DNA from: Bacteroidota bacterium
GTDB taxonomy: Bacteria; Bacteroidota; Bacteroidia; Bacteroidales; SZUA-534
NCBI GenBank assembly: GCA_003250355.1
Contig: QKGS01000088.1
Location: 1 to 50,171 of the forward strand
Reading direction: 5' to 3'
DNA: 50,171 bases
A program made the translations under genes and the position numbers. The first letter of the stretch is position 1; each line of letters opens with the position of its first letter. Below are positions 3,546 to 13,714 of the stretch, one piece after another. The notes below the pieces were generated by a model, which was given only the letters and a program-made list of their open reading frames with translations, made no database searches and was not told where the DNA came from.

Positions 3546-3617
3546 ACAGATGGAACATTCATATTTATAATCATGATATTGTATGTTACTTTAATAATTA
3601 TGAATGTTTCATCTGGT
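3546..3617 (-). repeat. Long inverted repeat between gldG and the DUF4340 gene
   Basis: The arms at about 3546-3563 and 3599-3617 are complementary over roughly 18 bp, with two imperfect pairs that would be G-U wobbles or mismatches in RNA. The loop is about 35 nt. The 5' arm of the transcript includes the gldG TGA stop (3609-3611). No U-tract follows, so it looks more like an mRNA-stabilising or translation-coupling hairpin than a terminator. Confidence 0.6.
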
Positions 3618-5330
3618 ATACTTGTTTTTTCTATAACGAGAGTAAGCCAAACCGGCTATTATGGTTATTATTATTGGTAGAGCAACATTTATAAATTGCC
3701 ATTTGGTTTTGTACTCTGTTATTTCTGCTTTATTGAGCATTCTGAGTTTGTACTCTTTTGAGCGGGTTTCTATAATATCTTCGTTGTTACACAAATAATT
3801 AATGCAATTCAGTAAAAACTCCTTGTTTCCAAAAGTTTGTTTGGTAAATCTGTCGTAGCCTAAAGCCAAAGGCTGAATGTTTTCGCCAACCCCCCGAACT
3901 TCATTTTTAATGATATCGCCATCGGATATTACTATCATTTTAGCCTCATTGCTTTGTTCAATAAATACAGGTTTAAATTTTCCTTTTGTTGATGGTGTAA
4001 TTCTATTGGTGTAAACCGATTTGAAATTACCTTCAAGTAATATTCCGGCAATCATTTCAGGTTTTGAAAATATTGAAGGCTCTATTTTTTCACTAACCAT
4101 CGACAAATCTATTAAAGCCGGCGTTACTGCTGTGCGACTATAGTTCGATGTTTTAAGAATAACACTTTTTTTAATTTTAGGGTCTAATCCTACGGTGTCT
4201 ATCTGACTAATAAACTGTGTTTTAACAAGGTCAACGTTTTTAGAAACAGGGTGGTCAGTTGATGGAATTAACAATGGATAATAAACCCACGGAGCCGGCA
4301 CGAATTTTGGTTTTTGTCCATTTATAGCAGTATTAACAGGTATTACGGCACATTGCATATCCTGCATAAGGTTAGGGTTTATTCTTACACCGTATGTAAA
4401 TAATTGGTCGTCGAGGTTCAGGTTGTGAGGCAATGCAATGGTAGTGCTTGTTCTGGTAAGGCTGTCTATGTCAATTTTCACATTGTCAATAAGCCAAAGG
4501 GTATTGCCTCCTCGCATTATGTGTTGGTCAATAATGTATTTATCTTGTTCGCTGAATTCGTTTTCAGGTTTTGCAATAACCAGCAAATCGAAAATATTAT
4601 TGCCCAGCGAATCGGTAAGGCTGGTAGCATCGCCATTAATTTTTACCCTTACAAGCCCGTAAAACTGCGATAGAGTCGATGCCATATCGTTAAGATGTAT
4701 AGGGTCTAATTCGCCATGTCCTTCTACAAATCCAATAAGGGGAAGCCTGTCTGTGGTTAGTTGCTTTACAGCAAATGAGAGTTCGTACTCTAAGGCTTGA
4801 ATAGAGCTGTGTAAGTTAGCATCTGGCGAAAAGGCTACATTATTTTTCAGAATATTAACCGGAAATTCATTACCGTTGTAACTAACCAGTATTCCGGGGA
4901 ATATTATTTTTTGCGAAGTGCTTCCGTCATTATCTTTAATATTAAGGTTTGTAGGGTTTAAACCTTTGTTGTATAGTTGTTGGTAAATTTTATTCCTTGT
5001 GTTTTTGCTTTCGCTTTCCGACGGGTTTATTATTTCATATTGTATATTGTCGCCGGCATAAGCTCTGAATTCATTGAGTAATTCTACTGTTGCGCTTTGG
5101 AGCCTTTTAAAGCCGGCCGGCAAATCGCCGTCGAGGTAAATTCTAAAAAACAGCACCTCATCTATACTGTTTAATAGTTCCTTGGTATTTTCAGAAATGG
5201 TGTACCGTTTGTCGGTAGTAAGGTCAATTCGGGTAAATACATTTGCTGAAATAAAATTGAGTAACAGAATTATTGCAATAGCAATAACAGCTTGTATTAT
5301 ATTTTCGTTTTTTGTTTTAGCTCTGTTCAT
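3609..5330 (-). CDS. gldG: Gliding motility-associated ABC transporter substrate-binding protein GldG
   Basis: About 573 residues from the ATG at 5330. An in-frame GTG at 5348 would add six residues and overlap gldF; ATG is preferred because this lineage seldom uses GTG. The protein has an N-terminal membrane segment (VIAIAIILLLNFISANVF), a large extracytoplasmic domain of the ABC_transp_aux type (including QLTTDRLPLIGFVEGHGELD and a DLLVIAKPENEFSEQDKYII stretch), and a C-terminal membrane helix (VALPIIITIIAGLAYSRY). This architecture is that of GldG, which with GldF and the ATPase GldA is required for gliding and for the linked T9SS in Flavobacterium johnsoniae. gldA is not in this window. 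The stop is 89 bp before the DUF4340 start. Confidence 0.9.
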   Translation of the reverse strand: MNRAKTKNENIIQAVIAIAIILLLNFISANVFTRIDLTTDKRYTISENTKELLNSIDEVLFFRIYLDGDLPAGFKRLQSATVELLNEFRAYAGDNIQYEIINPSESESKNTRNKIYQQLYNKGLNPTNLNIKDNDGSTSQKIIFPGILVSYNGNEFPVNILKNNVAFSPDANLHSSIQALEYELSFAVKQLTTDRLPLIGFVEGHGELDPIHLNDMASTLSQFYGLVRVKINGDATSLTDSLGNNIFDLLVIAKPENEFSEQDKYIIDQHIMRGGNTLWLIDNVKIDIDSLTRTSTTIALPHNLNLDDQLFTYGVRINPNLMQDMQCAVIPVNTAINGQKPKFVPAPWVYYPLLIPSTDHPVSKNVDLVKTQFISQIDTVGLDPKIKKSVILKTSNYSRTAVTPALIDLSMVSEKIEPSIFSKPEMIAGILLEGNFKSVYTNRITPSTKGKFKPVFIEQSNEAKMIVISDGDIIKNEVRGVGENIQPLALGYDRFTKQTFGNKEFLLNCINYLCNNEDIIETRSKEYKLRMLNKAEITEYKTKWQFINVALPIIITIIAGLAYSRYRKNKYTR

Positions 5331-5341
5331 ATTCTTTTGGG

Positions 5342-6073
5342 TTACCACTTGCGTGATTGTAGTTTTAAGCGGGTTAATGATAAAAATATCAGAATAGCAC
5401 TTATAAAATAAACAAGGTCGCGGGTATCGAGTACGCCCCGGCTTATTGATTGATAATGACTGCTAATGCTTAGTTGCTGAATGAATAATTCATTGCTGCC
5501 GGTTGTCGACATACTGCTTATTTTGTCTAAACCATAATAAATGGTGAATGTTAAAACCAGTGCAATAATAAAGGAAACTACCTGATTGTCGGTGAGCGAC
5601 GAAGAAAATATACCTATGGAGGCATATGTGGCAGCCAGTAAAAATAATCCGATATACGACCCCCATGTTCCGCCCATATCCATGTTTCCTACAGGATTGC
5701 CAAGCTTGTATGTTGATATAAAATAAATAAAAGTAGGGAGTATTGCTATTACTACTATGCTGAAAGTAGAAAGAAACTTAGCCCATACTATTGAAGTGTC
5801 GGAAATGGGGCGTGTTAGTAACAGTTCAATTGTGCCCAACCGTTTTTCGTCGGCAAACTGGCGCATACTCACTGCCGGAATAAGAAACATAAATACCCAC
5901 GGAGCTATTGTAAAAAATGAATCTAAAGTAGCATAGCCCGATTCCAGTATATTGGAGTCGCCCGGAACAATCCACATAAACAACCCTGTTAGGGCAAGGA
6001 ATACTATTATTACAAGGTATGCAGTTATGGAACTGAAAAAGCCTGCTAAATCCTTTTTAAAAAGTGCAAACAT
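5342..6073 (-). CDS. gldF: Gliding motility-associated ABC transporter permease GldF
   Basis: A 243-residue integral membrane protein with about six hydrophobic helices. It begins MFALFKKDLAGFFSSITAYL and carries the ABC-2 permease features MRQFADEKRLGTIELLLTRP and SIVWAKFLSTFSIVVIAILP. Length and sequence fit GldF, the permease partner of GldG. The gldG ATG lies 11 bp after its stop codon, so the two are translationally close and surely co-transcribed. A near-perfect Bacteroidota promoter lies just upstream, making gldF the first gene of the gldF-gldG-DUF4340 unit, possibly reading through to dnaN. Confidence 0.92.
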   Translation of the reverse strand: MFALFKKDLAGFFSSITAYLVIIVFLALTGLFMWIVPGDSNILESGYATLDSFFTIAPWVFMFLIPAVSMRQFADEKRLGTIELLLTRPISDTSIVWAKFLSTFSIVVIAILPTFIYFISTYKLGNPVGNMDMGGTWGSYIGLFLLAATYASIGIFSSSLTDNQVVSFIIALVLTFTIYYGLDKISSMSTTGSNELFIQQLSISSHYQSISRGVLDTRDLVYFISAILIFLSLTRLKLQSRKW

Positions 6074-6158: not shown

Positions 6159-8288
6159 TTACTGAGGAATACCTTTCATTGATAGAGCAATTCGTTTACG
6201 GTCAACTTCTACACTTACTACTTTAACCCTTACTTGTTGATTGAGTGTAACAACCTCCGAAGGGTCTGAAATAAATTTATCGGCAAGTTGCGAAACGTGT
6301 ACAAGTCCGTCTTGGTGAACACCTATGTCGACAAATGCGCCAAAATTTGTAATATTAGTAACCAAGCCGGGTAATTCCATACCGGGTATAAGATCTTTAA
6401 CCTCATGAACATTTGGGTCAAACTCAAATACTTTTATTATCTGGCGCGGGTCTCTGCCCGGTTTTTCAAGTTCTTTTAAAATATCGGTCAGAGTTTCTAT
6501 ACCGGTTGTTGCAGAAGTGTATTTCGATATATCAATACTACTGCGTTTGTCGCTACCGGCAATGAGTTCGGCTACTGTACAATTGCTGTCTTTAGCCATT
6601 TTTTCAACCACTTTGTAGCTTTCGGGGTGAACTGCGCTATTGTCGAGCGGGTTTTTTGCTCCCGGAATACGTAAGAACCCGGCACATTGTTCAAAAGCTT
6701 TAGCTCCCATTCGGGGAACGTTTTTTAGCTCACTTCTTGTTTTAAATGCTCCGTTTTCTTTACGATAATCGGTAATGTTTTCGGCAAGTTTAGGTCCAAG
6801 TCCGCTTATATAGCTAAGTAAATGCTTACTGGCTATATTTAGGTCAACTCCGACAGTATTAACACAGCTTTCCACTACAAAGTCGAGGTTTTCTTTAAGT
6901 TTGACTTGGTCTACATCGTGCTGATACTGACCTACGCCAATCGATTTCGGGTCAATTTTAACCAATTCGGCAAGCGGATCCATTAGTCGTCGGCCAATAG
7001 AAACTGCTCCCCTAACAGTAACATCGTACTGCGGAAATTCTTCGCGGGCAACAGGCGAGGCAGAGTAAATAGAGGCTCCACTTTCATTTACCATAAATAC
7101 TTTAACATCGTCTCTGAATTTTAGTTTTCGTATAAAGTCTTCAGTCTCACGGCTTGCTGTTCCATTTCCAATAGCAATAGCTTCTATTTTATAGGCATCA
7201 ATAAGTGTGTGGATTTTTTTTGCAGCTTCTTTGGTTTCCCTTTGCGGCGGATGTGGATATATAGTTTCGTTGTGAAGCAAATCGCCCGAACTACTCAGGC
7301 AAACTATTTTACAGCCGGTTCTGAATCCGGGGTCTATGGCCAAAGTTCGTTGTTGTCCGAGCGGAGGAGCCATTAGTAATTGTTTTGCATTGCGGGCAAA
7401 TACATCTATTGCTTCTTTGTCGGCTTTCTCTTTCGAAAGCTTTTTAAACTCCGTTTCGAGCGATGGTTGTATTAAACGTTTGTAACTATCGGCTACCACT
7501 ATTCGCATTTGTTTGGTTGCTTCAGAGAATCCCCTTACATATTGCTTGTCAAGTACGTCAATAGCTTTATCGGTGTCGGGGAAAATAGATATTTTAAGAA
7601 AACCTTCAGCTTCGCCGCGCCTCATGGCAAGCATACGATGTCCGGGGCATTTTTTTAAAGGTTCTTCAAAGTCGAAATAATCTTTGTATTTAGCTCCCTC
7701 TTCTTCTTTTCCTTTTACGAGTTTAGAATATATTACAGCTTCACGATTAAATAAATTTCGCAGTTTATTTCTTGCAAAAGAATCTTCACTTATTCTTTCG
7801 GCAACTATATCGCGGGCACCTTGAAGCGCATCGTCGACCGATTCTACTTCGGGGCTTAAATATTTTGAAGCTTCCTGCAATAAATCGGAGTTGAATTGTT
7901 TTATTAAAATATCGGCTAGCGGCTCAAGTCCTTTCTCTTTGGCTATTGTTGCTTTGGTTCTTTTCTTTGGTTTATATGGCAGATATATATCTTCAAGCTC
8001 ATTAGGCTCAAATGTGTTTTCAATTTTTTTATGGAGTTCAGGCGTTAGTTTTCCTTGCTCTTTAATGGTTTCAATAATGGTTTCTTTGCGTTTTTGAAGC
8101 TCGGAGTATCGCTTGTTTTGAATATTTATTTCGTGTACAGCAACTTCATCGAGGTTCCCGGTTGCCTCTTTCCGGTATCGGCTTATGAATGGAACGGTAG
8201 CTCCATCGGTTAAAAGATTAATAACAGAATCGGCTTGTTTATAGCTTATGTTTAAATTGGCTGCTATAAGTTCAATATATTTATTCAT
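6159..8288 (-). CDS. tex: Tex family RNA-binding transcriptional accessory protein
   Basis: The 709-residue product has the full Tex layout: N-terminal helical Tex_N domain (with the VPFISRYRKEATGNLDE segment), a YqgF/RuvX-like RNase H-fold domain around residues 310-450 (LAIDPGFRTGCKIVCL, IAIGNGTASRETEDF), a helix-hairpin-helix region near 480-540 (LLSYISGLGPKLAENI), and a C-terminal S1 RNA-binding domain (GLVTNITNFGAFVDIGVHQD). Tex is a cytoplasmic nucleic-acid-binding protein affecting transcription; its exact role is not settled. Length is normal (about 700-780 in the family). It is transcribed away from siaB across a 240-bp divergent gap and sits 85 bp before gldF. Confidence 0.96.
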   Translation of the reverse strand: MNKYIELIAANLNISYKQADSVINLLTDGATVPFISRYRKEATGNLDEVAVHEINIQNKRYSELQKRKETIIETIKEQGKLTPELHKKIENTFEPNELEDIYLPYKPKKRTKATIAKEKGLEPLADILIKQFNSDLLQEASKYLSPEVESVDDALQGARDIVAERISEDSFARNKLRNLFNREAVIYSKLVKGKEEEGAKYKDYFDFEEPLKKCPGHRMLAMRRGEAEGFLKISIFPDTDKAIDVLDKQYVRGFSEATKQMRIVVADSYKRLIQPSLETEFKKLSKEKADKEAIDVFARNAKQLLMAPPLGQQRTLAIDPGFRTGCKIVCLSSSGDLLHNETIYPHPPQRETKEAAKKIHTLIDAYKIEAIAIGNGTASRETEDFIRKLKFRDDVKVFMVNESGASIYSASPVAREEFPQYDVTVRGAVSIGRRLMDPLAELVKIDPKSIGVGQYQHDVDQVKLKENLDFVVESCVNTVGVDLNIASKHLLSYISGLGPKLAENITDYRKENGAFKTRSELKNVPRMGAKAFEQCAGFLRIPGAKNPLDNSAVHPESYKVVEKMAKDSNCTVAELIAGSDKRSSIDISKYTSATTGIETLTDILKELEKPGRDPRQIIKVFEFDPNVHEVKDLIPGMELPGLVTNITNFGAFVDIGVHQDGLVHVSQLADKFISDPSEVVTLNQQVRVKVVSVEVDRKRIALSMKGIPQ

Positions 8289-8466
8289 TGCATGAAAATT
8301 TGTATCATTAATACATATAAAACAAGAGGTTTTAAATATTTATTGTTATAAATTTTAAAACAGATTATTTATAAAAATGGATAGTTTTTATAAGTGGTGA
8401 ATAAAATAAAAATAAAGGGAAAAATAAAATAATTGGAGTATTACTAAATTGTAAAATTAGCGCCAT

Positions 8467-8474
8467 TAGTTTTG
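8467..8474 (+). promoter_or_regulatory. Candidate -7 box for siaB
   Basis: TAGTTTTG fully matches TAnnTTTG, 56 bp before the siaB ATG. No TTG lies at the ideal 19-bp spacing; the closest (8449-8451) has a 15-bp spacer. The rest of the tex-siaB gap (8289-8529) is A/T-rich with no gene. Confidence 0.35.
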
Positions 8475-8529
8475 TATATCGTAAATTGTTTATTAGTTTA
8501 GCATAACCATAATTATATGTAGCGTGTTA

Positions 8530-9060
8530 ATGACCCAAGTACAGCATAAAAATATTCTTAGCTATTCAGGAAATTTGAGTTTTGAAAAAATAAACGAATT
8601 ACTAGAACTATATAATGTAGAAGCTATTGAGTTGGGTATTAATCCTGTAACGCAAAAGCGTTTGTTTTCAATTTTGGTTGAAACTCTTGAAAATGCCTAC
8701 CGTCATAAAGTGCTTTCCATCGACAAAGAAAAATATAATAAAGTTGATTTTAGTCTTACTTATACAGATACCGATATTGAAGTTAATATAGGGAATTATA
8801 CAGTACCTGAAAATGCAGAGCAGGTAAGTGTAAAGCTTGATATGCTCAATAAGTTAAGTGTAAAAGGTATAAGTTCGTTGTATAAGGAGTCAATTGCAAA
8901 AGCTAAAATATCGGCTAAGGGTGGTGCCGGTTTGGGATTGATAGAAATAGCAAGGAATTCGCGTCAAATAATGAAATATAATATTACTAGCGTACAAAGT
9001 AGTATAGTGTATTTTGAATTTAATATTATAATTTCGCAGAATCCGAAGAAAGAAAAGTAA
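8530..9060 (+). CDS. siaB: SiaB family protein kinase (DUF6272)
   Basis: A 176-residue protein from the ATG at 8530; an in-frame GTG six bases upstream is less likely. It has a GHKL/HATPase-like fold: the N-box ILVETLENAYRH (Glu51, Asn55) and the glycine loop KGGAGLGLIEIARNS (near residue 131-144). These features and its size match SiaB, which in Pseudomonas aeruginosa phosphorylates the small protein SiaC; the phosphatase SiaA reverses this. The putative SiaC gene begins 2 bp after its stop codon, which strongly supports the call. Neither siaA nor the diguanylate cyclase siaD is present in the window. It is cytoplasmic, with no signal peptide. Confidence 0.85.
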   Translation: MTQVQHKNILSYSGNLSFEKINELLELYNVEAIELGINPVTQKRLFSILVETLENAYRHKVLSIDKEKYNKVDFSLTYTDTDIEVNIGNYTVPENAEQVSVKLDMLNKLSVKGISSLYKESIAKAKISAKGGAGLGLIEIARNSRQIMKYNITSVQSSIVYFEFNIIISQNPKKEK

Positions 9061-9062
9061 AT

Positions 9063-9464
9063 ATGATACCATTAATAATAGATTCTACAGTGTCTACTCC
9101 GAAAATAATATTTGACTTAAAGAATAATATTTTCGAAATGAGTGGTTGTTCACGTCCCGAAGATGTAAGGGATTTTTATAATCCTGTGTTGAAGTGGATA
9201 ACCGATTTAAACAGTGGAATTACTGAGGGGGTTAAAAAGAAATTTGCACAAGACCCTTTGGTTTTTTTATTCAGATTCGATTATTTTAATTCGTCGTCGG
9301 CCAAATTTATTCTCGATATTTTAATGATTCTTAATGAAATACATAAGAAAGATTTGAATATGATTGTAAAATGGCAATATGCCGAGAGCGATGAAGATAT
9401 GAGAGAAGTAGGCGAAGAACTTGAAGATGTTATTGACTTTATGTTTACTTTTGAGGAAATATAA
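9063..9464 (+). CDS. siaC: SiaC family regulatory phosphoprotein (DUF1987)
   Basis: A 133-residue protein whose N-terminus (STVSTPKIIFDLKNNIFEMS) followed by GCSRPEDVRDFYNPVLKWI is characteristic of DUF1987. The conserved phosphoacceptor region is FRFDYFNSSSAKFILDIL; Ser77-79 fall where P. aeruginosa SiaC carries its phosphorylated Thr (position recalled, not checked). In Pseudomonas unphosphorylated SiaC binds and activates the diguanylate cyclase SiaD. The target here must be something else or encoded elsewhere. It is directly coupled to siaB (2-bp gap). An ECF sigma factor gene starts 70 bp downstream on the same strand. Confidence 0.9.
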   Translation: MIPLIIDSTVSTPKIIFDLKNNIFEMSGCSRPEDVRDFYNPVLKWITDLNSGITEGVKKKFAQDPLVFLFRFDYFNSSSAKFILDILMILNEIHKKDLNMIVKWQYAESDEDMREVGEELEDVIDFMFTFEEI

Positions 9465-9534
9465 AATTACACCTTTCATTTGTAACCATTCGGTAAAGCC
9501 CCCGACATATTATTTGTAATAATTTAAGTTAATT

Positions 9535-10035
9535 GTGAATCGGGAAGAGGCTATCAAGCTTATAGAAAATCACCAAGCACTCATACGTAAGGTTTGTTCA
9601 ATGTATGCGCAAAGTACTGAAGAAGCCGACGATATGTTTCAGGAAGTGTGTATACAGGCATGGCGTTCGTGCGAACAGTTTAAGGGCGATTCTAAGTTTT
9701 CTACATGGCTATACCGAATTGCTATTAACACTTCTATTTCGTGGATTAGAAAAGAGAAAAAACATCAAGTTGTTGGAGTCGATAATGAGTGTTTTTATGG
9801 TATATGCGATGAAAACTCTTTCTATGAAAATGAAGAGAAACAAGAGCAGATATCTTTATTACATAAGGCGATTAATAAGTTGAATGGAATTGACAGGTCG
9901 CTTATATTGTTGTATCTGGAAGATGTTGCGTATGTTGAGATATCGGAAATACTGGGACTTTCGGTTAGCAATGTTAAGGTAAAAATGAATCGGCTTAAAA
10001 AGAAGTTGAAACAATTGATGGAAGAAAATGGATGA
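9535..10035 (+). CDS. ECF-type RNA polymerase sigma factor
   Basis: The 166-residue protein has sigma region 2 (about residues 20-80: EEADDMFQEVCIQAWRSC, FKGDSKFSTWLYRIAINTSI) and region 4 with its helix-turn-helix (about 105-160: INKLNGIDRSLILLYLEDVA, EISEILGLSVSNVKVKMNRL). No region 3 or C-terminal extension is present, as expected for the ECF class. The start appears to be GTG at 9535 (MNREEAIKL); the next in-frame ATG (9601) would cut into region 2. The stop overlaps the next gene by 8 bp, so the two are translationally coupled. It lies 70 bp after siaC with no terminator between, so siaB, siaC, sigma and the membrane protein may form one transcript. Confidence 0.93.
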   Translation: MNREEAIKLIENHQALIRKVCSMYAQSTEEADDMFQEVCIQAWRSCEQFKGDSKFSTWLYRIAINTSISWIRKEKKHQVVGVDNECFYGICDENSFYENEEKQEQISLLHKAINKLNGIDRSLILLYLEDVAYVEISEILGLSVSNVKVKMNRLKKKLKQLMEENG

Positions 10036-10642
10036 ACTTGATAAATTGAAAAATATTTGGGATAGTATTTCAAATTCAGTTATTGATAAAAATTTATCGA
10101 CCAATGAGTTGAGAAGAATTGTAGAGAGAAAATCGAAAAGTGAAATACTGAAAGTTAAAAGAAAATTTATCGCAGAGTGGGTTCTGTCTATAATATTGTC
10201 ATTATTGTTGGTAGGTTATGTTTATGTTTTTGAATCGTCAATGACATTGTATTCTATTGGTTTGGTTTTTATACTATTTGCAGTAAGTTTAATTCCGTTT
10301 ATTAAAATAATAGAACAAAAATCAATTTCTCACATTGAAATAAAGGAGTATCTGAAATTATTTATCGAAAGGTATGAGCAGTTGGTTGAAAATATTGTAA
10401 GGTTGCATACTTTTCTAATTCCTTTTGGGATATTAGGTGGTTATATGTTAGGTTATGCAACCGTAGTAAGTAATATTTCCGGTTTTGAACTTACGGTGAA
10501 AGATTGCGGTTTATGCTTGATAATAATCGTACCAATTACAGTAATAGCCTATTTATTATCGAAGCGTTACTCTTACTGGGTTTATGGTAAAAATATAAAA
10601 CGTTTAAAAGAGTGTTTGGCGGAGCTTGAAAAAGAGGAATAA
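10028..10642 (+). CDS. Four-helix membrane protein coupled to ECF sigma factor (candidate anti-sigma)
   Basis: A 204-residue protein with a charged N-terminal cytoplasmic region (about residues 1-45, including IVERKSKSEILKVKRKF), two hydrophobic helices (about 47-95), a short charged stretch (KSISHIEIKEYLKLFIERYE), and two more helices (about 125-180). Its ATG overlaps the sigma gene (ATGGATGA), the usual arrangement of sigma/anti-sigma pairs. No zinc-binding anti-sigma motif (HxxxCxxC) or FecR-like domain is visible, so an anti-sigma role rests on position and topology only. Many Bacteroidota ECF genes are followed by comparable small membrane proteins of unknown function. Confidence 0.75.
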   Translation: MDELDKLKNIWDSISNSVIDKNLSTNELRRIVERKSKSEILKVKRKFIAEWVLSIILSLLLVGYVYVFESSMTLYSIGLVFILFAVSLIPFIKIIEQKSISHIEIKEYLKLFIERYEQLVENIVRLHTFLIPFGILGGYMLGYATVVSNISGFELTVKDCGLCLIIIVPITVIAYLLSKRYSYWVYGKNIKRLKECLAELEKEE

Positions 10643-10645
10643 TAG

Positions 10646-11191
10646 CTAGAACTCATCGGCCAGTTTAATTATTTTTGAAATAGATATTAGCTGAGTACTT
10701 ACCTGTAAGCCGGTTTTTTCAACATTCTCAGGACATAATTCTATTCGGTATTTATCGCTTTTGCTTGTAAAGTTTATTAAGCCTCCCACTTCACAAAATC
10801 CGTTTATTTCATCGCCAATAGTTATTATAGCCTTATTGTTGAGTTGTTTAATAAATTGTTGAGCATCGAATTTTGTAATTCCGAGAATGTAAATTATATC
10901 GCACTTTTTACCCTGTTCAACGGTTTTAACATCAGATAGAATACATTCTTTGCCGTTGAATTTTCGGTTCGAATACATTTTTACGGGCAGGTCGCCAAGG
11001 TCGTAGTCGCCGTAAAAGCCAACCACAAATTTTTCATTATTAGGGGTTTGGTTTTCGGGCCAGTTAAAGTGTCGAACTATTGAATATATATATGCAAGTT
11101 TAACCTCATACTCACTAAAGTTCTGACAGTTAAGGCTGCCCGAAAATAAAAGTGAAAATGATGCTATTGTTAGTATTATTCTATTCAACAT
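10646..11191 (-). CDS. YfiR family (DUF4154) periplasmic protein
   Basis: A 181-residue protein with a cleavable signal peptide (IILTIASFSLLFSGSLNCQ) followed by the DUF4154 start YEVKLAYIYSIVRHFNWPEN. The central IIYILGITKFDAQQFIKQL and the glycine-rich GDEINGFCEVGGLINF stretches also fit the family. In Pseudomonas YfiR is a periplasmic repressor of the diguanylate cyclase YfiN and is captured by the OmpA-like lipoprotein YfiB. Here its start overlaps the stop of an OmpA-domain gene by 11 bp, so the YfiB-YfiR kind of pairing is preserved, but no cyclase is present. Its 3' end is only 3 bp from the end of the converging sigma/membrane-protein operon. Confidence 0.85.
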   Translation of the reverse strand: MLNRIILTIASFSLLFSGSLNCQNFSEYEVKLAYIYSIVRHFNWPENQTPNNEKFVVGFYGDYDLGDLPVKMYSNRKFNGKECILSDVKTVEQGKKCDIIYILGITKFDAQQFIKQLNNKAIITIGDEINGFCEVGGLINFTSKSDKYRIELCPENVEKTGLQVSTQLISISKIIKLADEF

Positions 11192-13691
11192 AAGTATTAT
11201 CGGTTTTGAGCTTAAATATTTCTATGTCAATTCTACGATCAGTGCTTGAGGCAACTTCTTCGGTCGATTTTGCTTCGCCATGGTTGTATTTTATACCTCT
11301 GTTAGTATCTACGGAATATACTTCAAGTTGTTCCAAAAACCAAATAATTCTTTTTTTCGACAGGTCGTAGTTGTAGTCGGCATTTCCGGTTACATCAGAG
11401 TATCCCGATACTATAAAGCCAAGTGTTTCATTGTTTACAAGCAATCGGGCAATATCGGTTATGTGGTTTTGAATAGAGTCGTGTCCGGTGTGTGAATTTA
11501 CATTAAAGTATACGGTGTAGCTTAATACAGTAACTCTATCTTCGGGCTTCGATTTGCGAATATCTTCTTTGGTAATCTTAACTTTTTCTTTCACTTCAGT
11601 TTTTTGTACAACCTTTTTATTTATACCCATCAGGTCGTTTTTAATTATTTTTTCGTCAGTCGATTCGGCAAATGTAAATATTTCAGGAGCGGTATAAATA
11701 GTATCGTTGCCAACAATTACTTGTTTTTTGTTGTTGTTATCTTCTTTCTCGGAATAAATAAATACTTGTTCAAATTTATCGGGAACAATCGTGTTTTCCT
11801 GTATTTTATTAAGTTTGGTAGTGTCGCCAAGGTCAAAAGCTTCTTCAACTAAAGACATAAGGTTGTTGTATTTCGAAGCTTCTTCTTCTTGTGTTAATGT
11901 TTCGTCGGTCGATTTTATTACGTTGTCATCTATTCCCCGTTTTTCAAGAACTTCGGAGTCAACAGAGTCGGTGTGGCTTATTATTAAGTCAATAAGTTCG
12001 AATAATTCGTCGTAGTTTTTTTCATTAACAGCTCCTGCTTCTTCTGCTATTTCCTCTTTTTTTATAGGTTCAGTATCGTCGAAGGAGTTACTTATAAGCA
12101 GTTGTTCGCCTACTTGCTTACCCATACTTACTACTGGTTTTAATCTGATTGACTGAAATAGCTCATAGAAATCTTGTTGATTTGGTATTTGTAATTGTAT
12201 GTTTTGAGGCATGAAGTTTTCCGATTCTATAATCATAGTATAATCGGTTCCCGGAGGTAATATGAGTAAGTATCGCCCTGTTTTAGGGTTTGGATTATAA
12301 ACATATTTCATTTTATTGTTGGTGCGTCCATGTATAATGCGAATTTTGGCAGCAACAGGTACAGGAGGATCGCCTGCTTTAATAGTCCCTTTTATTATAG
12401 TAAGCGGAATGTTCAGATTCATTTCTACCCGATATATATCGTGGTTTCCATAGCGGTTGCCAAATGCCGATGAGAAATAAGCATATTTTCCGCTACCCGA
12501 TAGTGTAAAAAACATATCATCGCTAGGTGTGTTAATTGGAAATCCCATATTCTCGGCCGGGAAAATTCTTTCAGGAGTAAGTAGTGAATTAAAAATATCG
12601 TATCCGCCAATTGCATTGTGTCCTTTTGAGCTAAAATAAAATATTCTGCCGCCCGGATGTATAAACGGTGCATCTTCATCGGATGGGGTGTTTATTTCTG
12701 CTCCCATATTTTGAGGCTCACCCCAAGTGTTTTCATCGATACGTTCACTTTTGTAAATATCTTTGCCTCCCAAGCCCCCTGAACGGTCGCTTGAAAAATA
12801 TATGGTATTTCCATCGGGCGAAAGTGTTACTTTACCTTCGTAGTAAGGCGAATTTATTGGTTTGGGCAGAGGTTCGAAGTTTAGTGTTCCATCATTTAAA
12901 TAGCGTGCAACGTAAATATCCTGATTGCCATAGTTGTCGGCATTAATGTACACATATTCACCATCGGGCGATAAGCCGGCAATAGATACCCCCTTACTTA
13001 TGTCAACTCCTGTTATTTCAAGTTTTCGTGGTGTACTCCATTCGCCTTGAACTTTATGCGATGTGTATAAATGACTTACAGTGTCGGGCAATTTGGTTGA
13101 CTGCAATTCCTCGTCGGTGTAGAATTTTTTTGCGGCAAAGAACAATATACTGTCATCGGCCGAGATGAAAGGGGCAAATTCTGAATTTTCAGAATTTATA
13201 ATATTTCCTCCATTTTCAATTGATACATCTAAGGTGTCGGCAATAAGTATTTTGGCATTGATACAGGTTTGAATCATGCGCTTTGCATGGTCAAGGTACA
13301 TACCGAATTTTTCTTCTGTTACTGTGTATTTTTCATAATGCGATATTGCTTTATCGAATTGATATGTAAGGTGATATATGTCGCCTAAATCCTTATGGAC
13401 TATTGCAGGTATATAATTCTCCCCTTTTTCTACTGCTTTAACAAGGTATGGAATGGCCTTATCTTTCTGGTAGCGAGTATTTAGGTAGCAGGCTCCTAAA
13501 TAATAGTTTATTTCAAAGTGGTCGGGATACCGTTTTACCAAATCTTCAAGTATAACCCTTGAGTTAAAAAAATCTTCACTATTGAAGAAATCTGTTGCTT
13601 TGTTGTAGGCACTTTTGTCGTTTTTAGCAAGTTTCTGTGAAAATGCCAGTGTTGAAAACATAAAAAGTGCAATGAATATAATATGCCTCAT
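11181..13691 (-). CDS. OmpA family protein with TPR and PD40 beta-propeller
   Basis: About 836 residues from the ATG at 13691; an in-frame TTG 18 bp upstream would spoil the signal peptide. Order of parts: signal peptide (MRHIIFIALFMFSTLAFSQ), TPR region (about 20-115), PD40/WD40-like propeller (about 155-400; repeats such as LSPDGNTIYFSSDRSGGLGG and GGRIFYFSSKGHNAIGGYDI), a carboxypeptidase-regulatory-like domain (about 425-500), a long acidic linker (about 510-680), and a C-terminal OmpA domain with GYSDVTGNADYNYDLSKKRI containing the Asp and Arg that bind peptidoglycan. This architecture is common in Bacteroidota outer-membrane proteins, several of them T9SS-linked (PorE-like). The stop overlaps yfiR. 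Confidence 0.9.
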   Translation of the reverse strand: MRHIIFIALFMFSTLAFSQKLAKNDKSAYNKATDFFNSEDFFNSRVILEDLVKRYPDHFEINYYLGACYLNTRYQKDKAIPYLVKAVEKGENYIPAIVHKDLGDIYHLTYQFDKAISHYEKYTVTEEKFGMYLDHAKRMIQTCINAKILIADTLDVSIENGGNIINSENSEFAPFISADDSILFFAAKKFYTDEELQSTKLPDTVSHLYTSHKVQGEWSTPRKLEITGVDISKGVSIAGLSPDGEYVYINADNYGNQDIYVARYLNDGTLNFEPLPKPINSPYYEGKVTLSPDGNTIYFSSDRSGGLGGKDIYKSERIDENTWGEPQNMGAEINTPSDEDAPFIHPGGRIFYFSSKGHNAIGGYDIFNSLLTPERIFPAENMGFPINTPSDDMFFTLSGSGKYAYFSSAFGNRYGNHDIYRVEMNLNIPLTIIKGTIKAGDPPVPVAAKIRIIHGRTNNKMKYVYNPNPKTGRYLLILPPGTDYTMIIESENFMPQNIQLQIPNQQDFYELFQSIRLKPVVSMGKQVGEQLLISNSFDDTEPIKKEEIAEEAGAVNEKNYDELFELIDLIISHTDSVDSEVLEKRGIDDNVIKSTDETLTQEEEASKYNNLMSLVEEAFDLGDTTKLNKIQENTIVPDKFEQVFIYSEKEDNNNKKQVIVGNDTIYTAPEIFTFAESTDEKIIKNDLMGINKKVVQKTEVKEKVKITKEDIRKSKPEDRVTVLSYTVYFNVNSHTGHDSIQNHITDIARLLVNNETLGFIVSGYSDVTGNADYNYDLSKKRIIWFLEQLEVYSVDTNRGIKYNHGEAKSTEEVASSTDRRIDIEIFKLKTDNTYVE

Positions 13692-13706: not shown

Positions 13707-13714
13707 CAAAAATA
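13707..13714 (-). promoter_or_regulatory. Candidate -7 box for the OmpA/yfiR operon
   Basis: On the minus strand this reads TATTTTTG, a full TAnnTTTG match, but only about 15 bp before the ATG at 13691, which would leave a very short leader. No clear -33 TTG is seen at 19 bp. Confidence 0.3.

Follow-up and report, generated by a model that had tools for sequence, protein, structure and literature searches.

Do genes for two cyclase-control modules that meet around a sigma factor gene form one regulatory circuit, or are they neighbors by accident? The question is raised by a 50,171-nucleotide stretch of contig QKGS01000088.1 (hereafter, the window) from a Bacteroidota bacterium of the Bacteroidales (SZUA-534; assembly GCA_003250355.1), in which siaB- and siaC-like genes, an extracytoplasmic function (ECF) sigma factor gene and a membrane protein gene face a yfiR-like gene and a gene for an OmpA-domain protein. 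An earlier note, made from the letters of the window, had proposed that both modules are re-used here to control an output other than a diguanylate cyclase, possibly the sigma factor. Comparison with related genomes makes it likely instead that the locus consists of three independently inherited signaling units brought together by local rearrangement, most likely with no control of one over another. The neighborhood is thus probably accidental; the idea of re-use holds at the scale of the genome.

The gene order given in the earlier note is confirmed for all six genes, with siaB, siaC, sigma factor and membrane protein genes on the plus strand and, tail to tail across a 3-base gap (10643–10645), yfiR and the OmpA gene on the minus strand. 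The features, by position in the window, are:

8471–8501, plus strand: possible Bacteroidota housekeeping promoter, TTTG-N19-TAGTTTAG, upstream of siaB (weak regular-expression match)
8530–9060, plus strand: siaB-like GHKL-type protein kinase (DUF6272, 82 bits, E 3.2e-23; best matches of orthologs; motifs)
9063–9464, plus strand: siaC-like STAS-fold phosphoprotein (PF09345, 105 bits, E 2e-30; Ser77 at the position of Pseudomonas aeruginosa Thr68)
9481–9506, plus strand: ECF-type promoter motif, TGTAAC-N16-CGAC, before the sigma factor gene (same motif and spacing in 7/7 orthologs, window included)
9535–10035, plus strand: ECF sigma factor gene (sigma region 2 and region 4 domains)
10028–10642, plus strand: membrane protein of no family, candidate anti-sigma factor (pairing with the sigma factor at 6/6 places; hydrophobic stretches; W11)
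10646–11191, minus strand: YfiR/HmsC-like periplasmic protein (DUF4154, 88 bits, E 8.2e-25)
11181–13691, minus strand: TPR-PD40-OmpA envelope protein (domain scan; overlaps yfiR; putative YfiB-like role)

The siaB–siaC pair

The siaB–siaC pair of the window has orthologs in 15 of 19 relatives from a family that we judge to be the Salinivirgaceae; the remaining four have no close match among the matches listed. All 15 SiaB orthologs match the window SiaB best among the six SiaB domains of its genome, and all 15 SiaC orthologs match the window SiaC best among 17. The two genes adjoin at every one of these loci and other genes flank them, among them those for the GTPases Era and Der (named by eye) and for a DUF4407 membrane protein (one scanned). 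Models of the sigma factor, the membrane protein and the OmpA protein found no match in any of the 15 stretches.

A wider survey used 79 of 80 SiaB loci, the other (L267) being without a siaB reading frame in gene calling; several of the 79 lie on the same contigs as our sample of relatives (G-numbered genomes), and many are shortened by contig ends. SiaC is adjacent at 73 loci, an ECF-like gene lies within 5 kb at three (L240, L263, L271), YfiR within 5 kb at four, an OmpA/PD40 gene is found at one, and a membrane protein of the window type at none. At a rough density of some 20 ECF genes per 4 Mb, chance alone would give about four ECF neighbors, and fewer for the shortened loci, so ECF genes are not enriched near SiaB. 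The survey thus speaks against the sigma factor as the output of the Sia genes, and the combination of SiaB–SiaC with ECF and YfiR/OmpA neighbors, whose uniqueness would by the earlier note's own terms count against its proposal, is unique to this lineage as far as sampled, the genus being represented by this genome alone. Elsewhere, two genomes have a divergent ECF-like gene adjoining a tandem SiaB gene (L240:4943-6758, L271:9270-11041); that ECF gene is of a different type, and another kind of gene follows it.

The window SiaB reaches the NCBIfam cut-off for SiaB_fam_kinase (85.2 bits, cut-off 85) and matches chain A of structure 6kko at E 0.00067, and the window SiaC matches the solved SiaC chains of 6kko and 6k4f at E 1.1e-10. 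The narrower NCBIfam models kinase_SiaB (41.7 bits, cut-off 225) and phos_prot_SiaC (70.4 bits, cut-off 150) are not reached in the window. Residues E51 and N55 of SiaB (E-x3-N) and its GGAGLG loop, which we take to be motifs of the GHKL fold, are invariant in 11 sequences. In SiaC, Ser77 sits at the site equivalent to Thr68 of P. aeruginosa SiaC, to which SiaB adds, and from which SiaA removes, a phosphate according to excerpts of PMC7647112 and PMC8457831. Mapping by our own alignment the nine SiaD-binding residues given in those excerpts (PMC8457831), we find Y65, N67, S69 and E110 kept, Ser in place of T68, and four replaced (D29 by C, Y31 by R, I71 by A and R103 by D). Replacements of this kind would be expected in a SiaC that no longer has SiaD as its partner, as may be the case here.

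The sigma factor and its membrane protein

Orthologs of the window sigma factor, 61–66% identical by blastp, occur in six relatives (G001, G002, G004, G005, G007 and G011), and at all six places the same membrane protein gene follows (34–40% identity). None of siaBC, yfiR and the OmpA gene is present in these stretches, which cover 2.0–15.0 kb upstream and 1.2–9.7 kb downstream, and dnaE (named by eye) lies near the sigma factor gene in G001, G005 and G011, as it does in the window. Even in the stretches around five distant homologs (L090–L094) the next gene encodes a protein of about 190–220 residues with a similar start, and tryptophan W11 of the membrane protein is invariant in 12/12 sequences.

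The motif TGTAAC-N16-CGAC, a consensus that we presume to be that of an ECF promoter, stands with identical spacing upstream of all seven sigma factor genes, window included, and begins 42–54 bases ahead of the start codon used. The surrounding DNA has otherwise diverged, and dinucleotide shuffles of each sequence gave 0/2000; a looser form of the motif is unremarkable in the window alone, occurring at least once in 40 of 100 shuffles. Because both motif and spacing are conserved before every one of the seven genes, the sigma factor and membrane protein probably form a unit with a promoter of its own, in the window between siaC and the sigma factor gene, and autoregulation of that promoter appears likely. 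The arrangement recalls ECF sigma factors co-transcribed with a membrane anti-sigma factor, in that the genes overlap (by 8 bp) and an ECF-type motif is kept among relatives; it differs in that the membrane protein belongs to no Pfam or NCBIfam family, reaching no cut-off in either. Gene pairing suggests that this protein may bind and inhibit the sigma factor.

A shared ECF regulon that would include the OmpA–yfiR genes was considered and rejected: the loose motif occurs once in the window, before the sigma factor gene, with 0.55 occurrences expected by chance. Genome-wide, TGTAAC-N15-17-CGACA has nine sites against eight for the reversed control, so no regulon can be called. Two of the nine follow YfiR paralogs on contigs C67 and C96, at distances of about 360 and 390 bp; we treat them as chance, since their spacing is 15 rather than the conserved 16.

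The OmpA–YfiR pair

A sister copy of the OmpA–YfiR pair is found in the same genome on contig C96 (L282:135-5708), where genes for an OmpA-PD40 protein, YfiR, a CHASE8-HAMP-HisKA-HATPase-REC-Hpt protein and a STAS protein stand in a row. This order recurs in G007, where it was confirmed by domain scan, and in G002 and G005, where gene order and similar start sequences indicate it; in G019 the kinase was confirmed by scan and no STAS gene was seen. G002 holds a second, kinase-less OmpA–YfiR pair, which contains the best relative of the window YfiR (38% identity). Judged by this gene order and similarity, the module is recurrent and the window has an orphan copy of it. The third partner on C96 is a hybrid kinase and not a GGDEF protein; therefore the output of the Yfi-like module at the sister locus, a histidine kinase, differs from that of YfiN.

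For YfiB, YfiR and YfiN of P. aeruginosa we rely on excerpts of PMC4655355. The window shares with that system a YfiR homolog, beside a gene with a weak OmpA-domain match as its candidate partner, and the third partner at the sister locus has CHASE8 and HAMP domains. The differences are that the partner here is a large TPR-PD40-OmpA protein, that the output at the sister locus is HisKA-HATPase-REC-Hpt plus STAS, and that the window copy has no third partner. The periplasmic domain of YfiN is CHASE8. An association of YfiR with kinases is already catalogued in NCBIfam, as NF053592 ('sensor histidine kinase, YfiR-like protein-associated'). Neither the cut-off of this family (194 bits) nor that of NF053591 ('YfiR_like_TOL0243', 125 bits) is reached: the kinase on C96 obtains 173 bits against the former and the window YfiR 78 bits against the latter. 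The window YfiR also stays below the cut-off of sequest_YfiR (28.6 bits, cut-off 85) and matches the solved YfiR chains weakly (E 0.11). Its neighbor carries a weak OmpA domain (17.5 bits against a Pfam cut-off of 27.2; the sister copy on C96 has 49 bits) and scores 28 bits against the YfiB model (cut-off 128), less than against PorE-type and CHU_0125-type models, all of these scores lying below their cut-offs.

A Sia network without a detectable diguanylate cyclase

The earlier note's statement that no GGDEF protein accompanies these genes extends to the whole genome: a profile search with PF00990 gave no match in 3.70 Mb at 99.98% completeness (PilZ and EAL domains were not searched), and the same search was positive in eight of 14 control genomes. 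In a sample of 60 related genomes only one, G057, has a GGDEF match, and it has no SiaC among the matches listed. On the same basis SiaC and SiaB are both present in 36 of the 60 and both absent from 24, so their co-occurrence across the sample is perfect. (This set and the set of 294 genomes used below both include the genome of the window.)

The genome encodes 17 SiaC genes, six SiaB domains in five genes and 18 SpoIIE domains. The claim that the phosphatase SiaA is missing therefore stands locally, in that none of the cluster's genes encodes it and contig C1 has no SpoIIE domain, but does not describe the genome. SiaB lies beside four of the 17 SiaC genes (window, L068, L069 and L078); the other 13 (L070–L077 and L079–L083) have no adjoining SiaB. 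Neighbors of these solitary SiaC genes include a permease, an M48 peptidase and an alpha/beta hydrolase (all scanned) and, at L076, a TPR-SpoIIE phosphatase; the others are, by eye, mostly metabolic and housekeeping genes. On contig C79 (L069:4906-11621) a GAF-PAS-SpoIIE protein, SiaB, SiaC and a TerB-ABC transporter protein are encoded in a row, and CheB- and CheR-like genes (by eye) lie upstream of it. At the site equivalent to Thr68, seven of the 17 SiaC proteins have Ser and ten have Thr. Comparison of the six SiaB domains shows that the glycine loop departs in the second half of a tandem SiaB. Three-domain SiaB-SiaB-SiaC fusions were also observed (L393:2067-3584 by Pfam scan; L394:6281-7837 and L395:5822-7381 by our own models), and suggest that a tandem SiaB acts on the adjacent SiaC.

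The genome has thus kept and multiplied a phosphorylation switch whose known target enzyme is not found there. It resembles SiaABCD of P. aeruginosa in the pairing of a SiaB kinase with a SiaC phosphoprotein, in the retained phosphosite and kinase motifs and in its SpoIIE phosphatases; it differs in the lack of a GGDEF match, in its numbers (17 SiaC, five SiaB genes), in Ser for Thr in seven of 17, in the narrow cut-offs not reached and in the four of nine SiaD-binding residues replaced in the window SiaC. According to excerpts of PMC9239204, SiaABCD is itself a merger of a phosphatase-kinase-STAS system with cyclic di-GMP (c-di-GMP), and a general role of DUF1987 proteins as modulators of adjacent proteins is suggested in excerpts of PMC8457831.

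A solitary SiaB beside a class III cyclase

One branch of the network points to a candidate target. On contig C76 (about 7425–9850; L289:3425-5854) a solitary SiaB precedes a PAS-class III cyclase (PF00211, E 1.7e-51) on the same strand, at a gap of 153 bp and with no SiaC beside it. An orthologous SiaB followed by a homologous cyclase is present in 15 of 16 family relatives examined and lacking in G001 (of the 19 relatives, G002, G004 and G011 were left out of this survey). These 15 come from three genera, with 11, three and one genomes respectively, which leaves fewer independent cases than the count of 15. In 15 family genomes, own included, the gap is 75–266 bp on the same strand; it was not measured in G008, where siaB is masked by an antisense frame in gene calling and its position and the cyclase come from separate searches. 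The active-site motifs FAD, EKIKTxGDA and YDxWG[DE]xxN are kept in all eight cyclases aligned, out of 18 linked to SiaB in two families, and presumably point to adenylate over guanylate cyclase.

In another family, G133 and G231 have SiaB 124 and 216 bp upstream of a protein of 1302–1303 residues with a C-terminal cyclase domain (scanned for G133). Extension of the pair to further families was rejected: in 20 SiaB loci outside the family (of 27 listed), 18 have no cyclase within three genes, and G133 and G231, from one family, are the only exceptions. Among the 30 best cyclase loci of the taxonomic order, four have a SiaB within 1.5 kb (L313, L316, L317, L327), G133 and G231 lying beyond the flank. 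Among the matches listed, a cyclase (E 1e-30) is found in 138 of 294 genomes and SiaB (E 1e-20) in 114, and the genome of the window has four cyclase matches, for one of which, on C75, the stretch covered contains no SiaB; since cyclases occur also without SiaB, it is the pairing and not mere presence that is the signal. In G035 a frame of 94 codons separates a SiaB-SiaB-SiaC fusion from a receiver-class III cyclase protein encoded downstream of it; a fusion of this kind has no cyclase in the stretch covered in G054 and G029, the contig of the latter ending just upstream of the gene. At eight of the 20 further loci, SiaB is followed by a protein of 608–651 residues (L378:7541-9475 and homologs at L379–L382, L384, L386 and L387); these are 26–54% identical to that of L378, which has no Pfam family by scan.

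Weighing the explanations

The earlier note's model holds that SiaC, switched by SiaB, or YfiR–OmpA, or both, control the ECF sigma factor or its anti-sigma factor. It draws on the adjacency of the genes in the window, 70 bp apart on one strand, on the absence of a GGDEF match in the genome and on the likeness of SiaC to anti-sigma antagonists reported in excerpts of PMC7647112. Set against these are the sigma factor and membrane protein genes without siaBC at 6/6 places and behind their own promoter motif, siaBC without the sigma factor in 15/15 stretches, and the three ECF-like genes near 79 SiaB loci. On this conservation of neighborhoods we rejected SiaC as a controller of the sigma factor, and we regard the model as a whole as very improbable. 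The supposition of re-use keeps its force as to the modules, both of Sia and Yfi type, which are employed where no diguanylate cyclase is detectable (none in the own genome, one GGDEF genome in 60) and, on C96, beside a kinase; it loses it as to action on the sigma factor or on each other, the genes being separate conserved units. Less credible still, and scarcely worth entertaining, is that ordinary Sia and Yfi systems operate with a diguanylate cyclase that is present but was missed, being too divergent or lying in an assembly gap: the assembly is in 106 contigs and the search was by profile only, yet it found nothing at 99.98% completeness while detecting GGDEF in eight of 14 controls, and the one GGDEF genome of 60 (G057) is without SiaC.

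Two further proposals place the partner of a window protein elsewhere in the genome. The window SiaC might act in trans on a class III cyclase, for example that beside the solitary SiaB, so that the switch would control cyclic AMP and not c-di-GMP. The direct SiaB–cyclase succession in the own genome, in 15/16 relatives and in two genomes of another family favors this, as does the fusion upstream of the receiver-cyclase protein in G035. We nevertheless think it unlikely, given that no cyclase adjoins the window SiaC and no SiaC the solitary SiaB, that no cyclase lies within three genes of SiaB at 18 of 20 further loci and only four of the 30 best cyclase loci have a SiaB within 1.5 kb, that the C75 cyclase (one of four) has no SiaB in the stretch covered, and that G031, G045 and G049 match the cyclase but not SiaB among the matches listed. 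Somewhat better founded, and to be put forward tentatively, is that the orphan OmpA–YfiR pair acts in trans on the CHASE8 hybrid histidine kinase of C96 as a second envelope input. Such a row of OmpA, YfiR, CHASE8 kinase and STAS genes exists in the same genome, G002 likewise combines one row with one kinase-less pair, and NF053592 describes a family of YfiR-associated sensor kinases; on the other hand, the YfiR proteins that adjoin an OmpA gene in this genome (window and C96) share only 32% identity, and with seven YfiR matches there, another CHASE8 kinase, beside YfiR on C92, could be the partner instead.

Several observations weigh against three independent units. Among the matches listed, siaBC and the sigma factor gene share one contig in G001 and G005, about 51 kb and 63 kb apart, and SiaB has an OmpA–YfiR pair at about 20 kb in G002 and G019 and a YfiR gene at about 22 kb in G003, so the genes belong in part to one chromosomal region. 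Read-through from siaC to the sigma factor gene is possible because the genes lie 70 bp apart on one strand, a functional link specific to the genus is possible because the sample holds no second genome of that genus, and the sigma factor of G011, whose frame is broken in gene calling, aligns over 83 residues only. In six of the 15 siaBC stretches (L150, L157, L159, L160, L161 and L163), moreover, a YfiR paralog lies 4.4–8.0 kb from siaB. These YfiR genes are not the ortholog of the window gene, and five of the six come from one genus; more than inheritance may be involved. (Positions include L150:993-2233, L157:10532-11044 and L161:3211-3714.) The four YfiR genes near SiaB in the survey of 79 loci are all from ruminant-gut Salinivirgaceae, four genes away. 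A link between YfiR and SiaB was considered for both sets, and because other YfiR paralogs are concerned, mostly in one genus, we read it, without proof, as an inherited arrangement.

Proposed working of the three units

Gene pairing, conserved residues, the promoter motif and the GGDEF search lead us to propose the following reactions and partners for three independent units. By analogy with SiaABC of P. aeruginosa, SiaB would probably phosphorylate SiaC at Ser77, one or more SpoIIE-type phosphatases, activated by their own sensors, would probably remove the phosphate, and unphosphorylated SiaC would bind one or more partners that are not GGDEF proteins; SiaC is unlikely to control the sigma factor directly. 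The sigma factor and the overlapping membrane protein would act as an autoregulated sigma/anti-sigma pair under their own promoter, an activity predicted from the observed conservation of the motif. The OmpA protein would capture YfiR and the two would serve as an envelope-state relay, with a CHASE8-HAMP hybrid histidine kinase, as on C96, a more likely output than a cyclase. More speculatively, SpoIIE, SiaB and SiaC may form a large, general-purpose network in those Bacteroidales that have no diguanylate cyclases, with SiaB and a class III cyclase as one conserved branch, a cyclic mononucleotide in place of c-di-GMP and the window SiaBC as one node; we hold this to be possible, at somewhat less than even chances.

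Relation to earlier work

The experiments on SiaC in excerpts of PMC8457831 and PMC7647112 deal with how a single P. aeruginosa diguanylate cyclase is switched. We came across no account of SiaBC genes expanded into a network in the absence of c-di-GMP in the literature searched, which was mostly open-access and without preprints (SiaB together with adenylate cyclase was not searched by name). In that literature DUF1987 appears in PMC8457831 only, and no mention was found of DUF6272 or the SiaB/SiaC family names, of SpoIIE with Bacteroidetes and partner switching, or of YfiR in Bacteroidetes together with a histidine kinase; SiaC, SiaB and Bacteroidetes occur together in two papers, one of them PMC7643975, and partner switching with adenylate cyclase in two papers on Chlamydia. 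The idea of general modulation by DUF1987 proteins can be tested in this genome, which has 17 SiaC genes and no GGDEF match, and the recurrent SiaB–cyclase pair is a first concrete candidate target; if the proposal is true, one phosphoswitch has moved between second messengers. The locus also carries a caution, in that two 'cyclase-control' modules next to a sigma factor do not stay together when relatives are compared.

Other features of the window

The match upstream of siaB to TTTG-N19-TAGTTTAG, which we take to be the Bacteroidota housekeeping consensus, begins 59 bases before the window ATG, and its conservation in the 15 orthologs is not clear. The TPR-PD40-OmpA gene has a possible earlier TTG start at 13709 (13691 is used above). 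At 3609–6073 the window encodes an ABC transporter pair with ABC_transp_aux and ABC2_membrane domains, which presumably resembles GldG and GldF of gliding motility.

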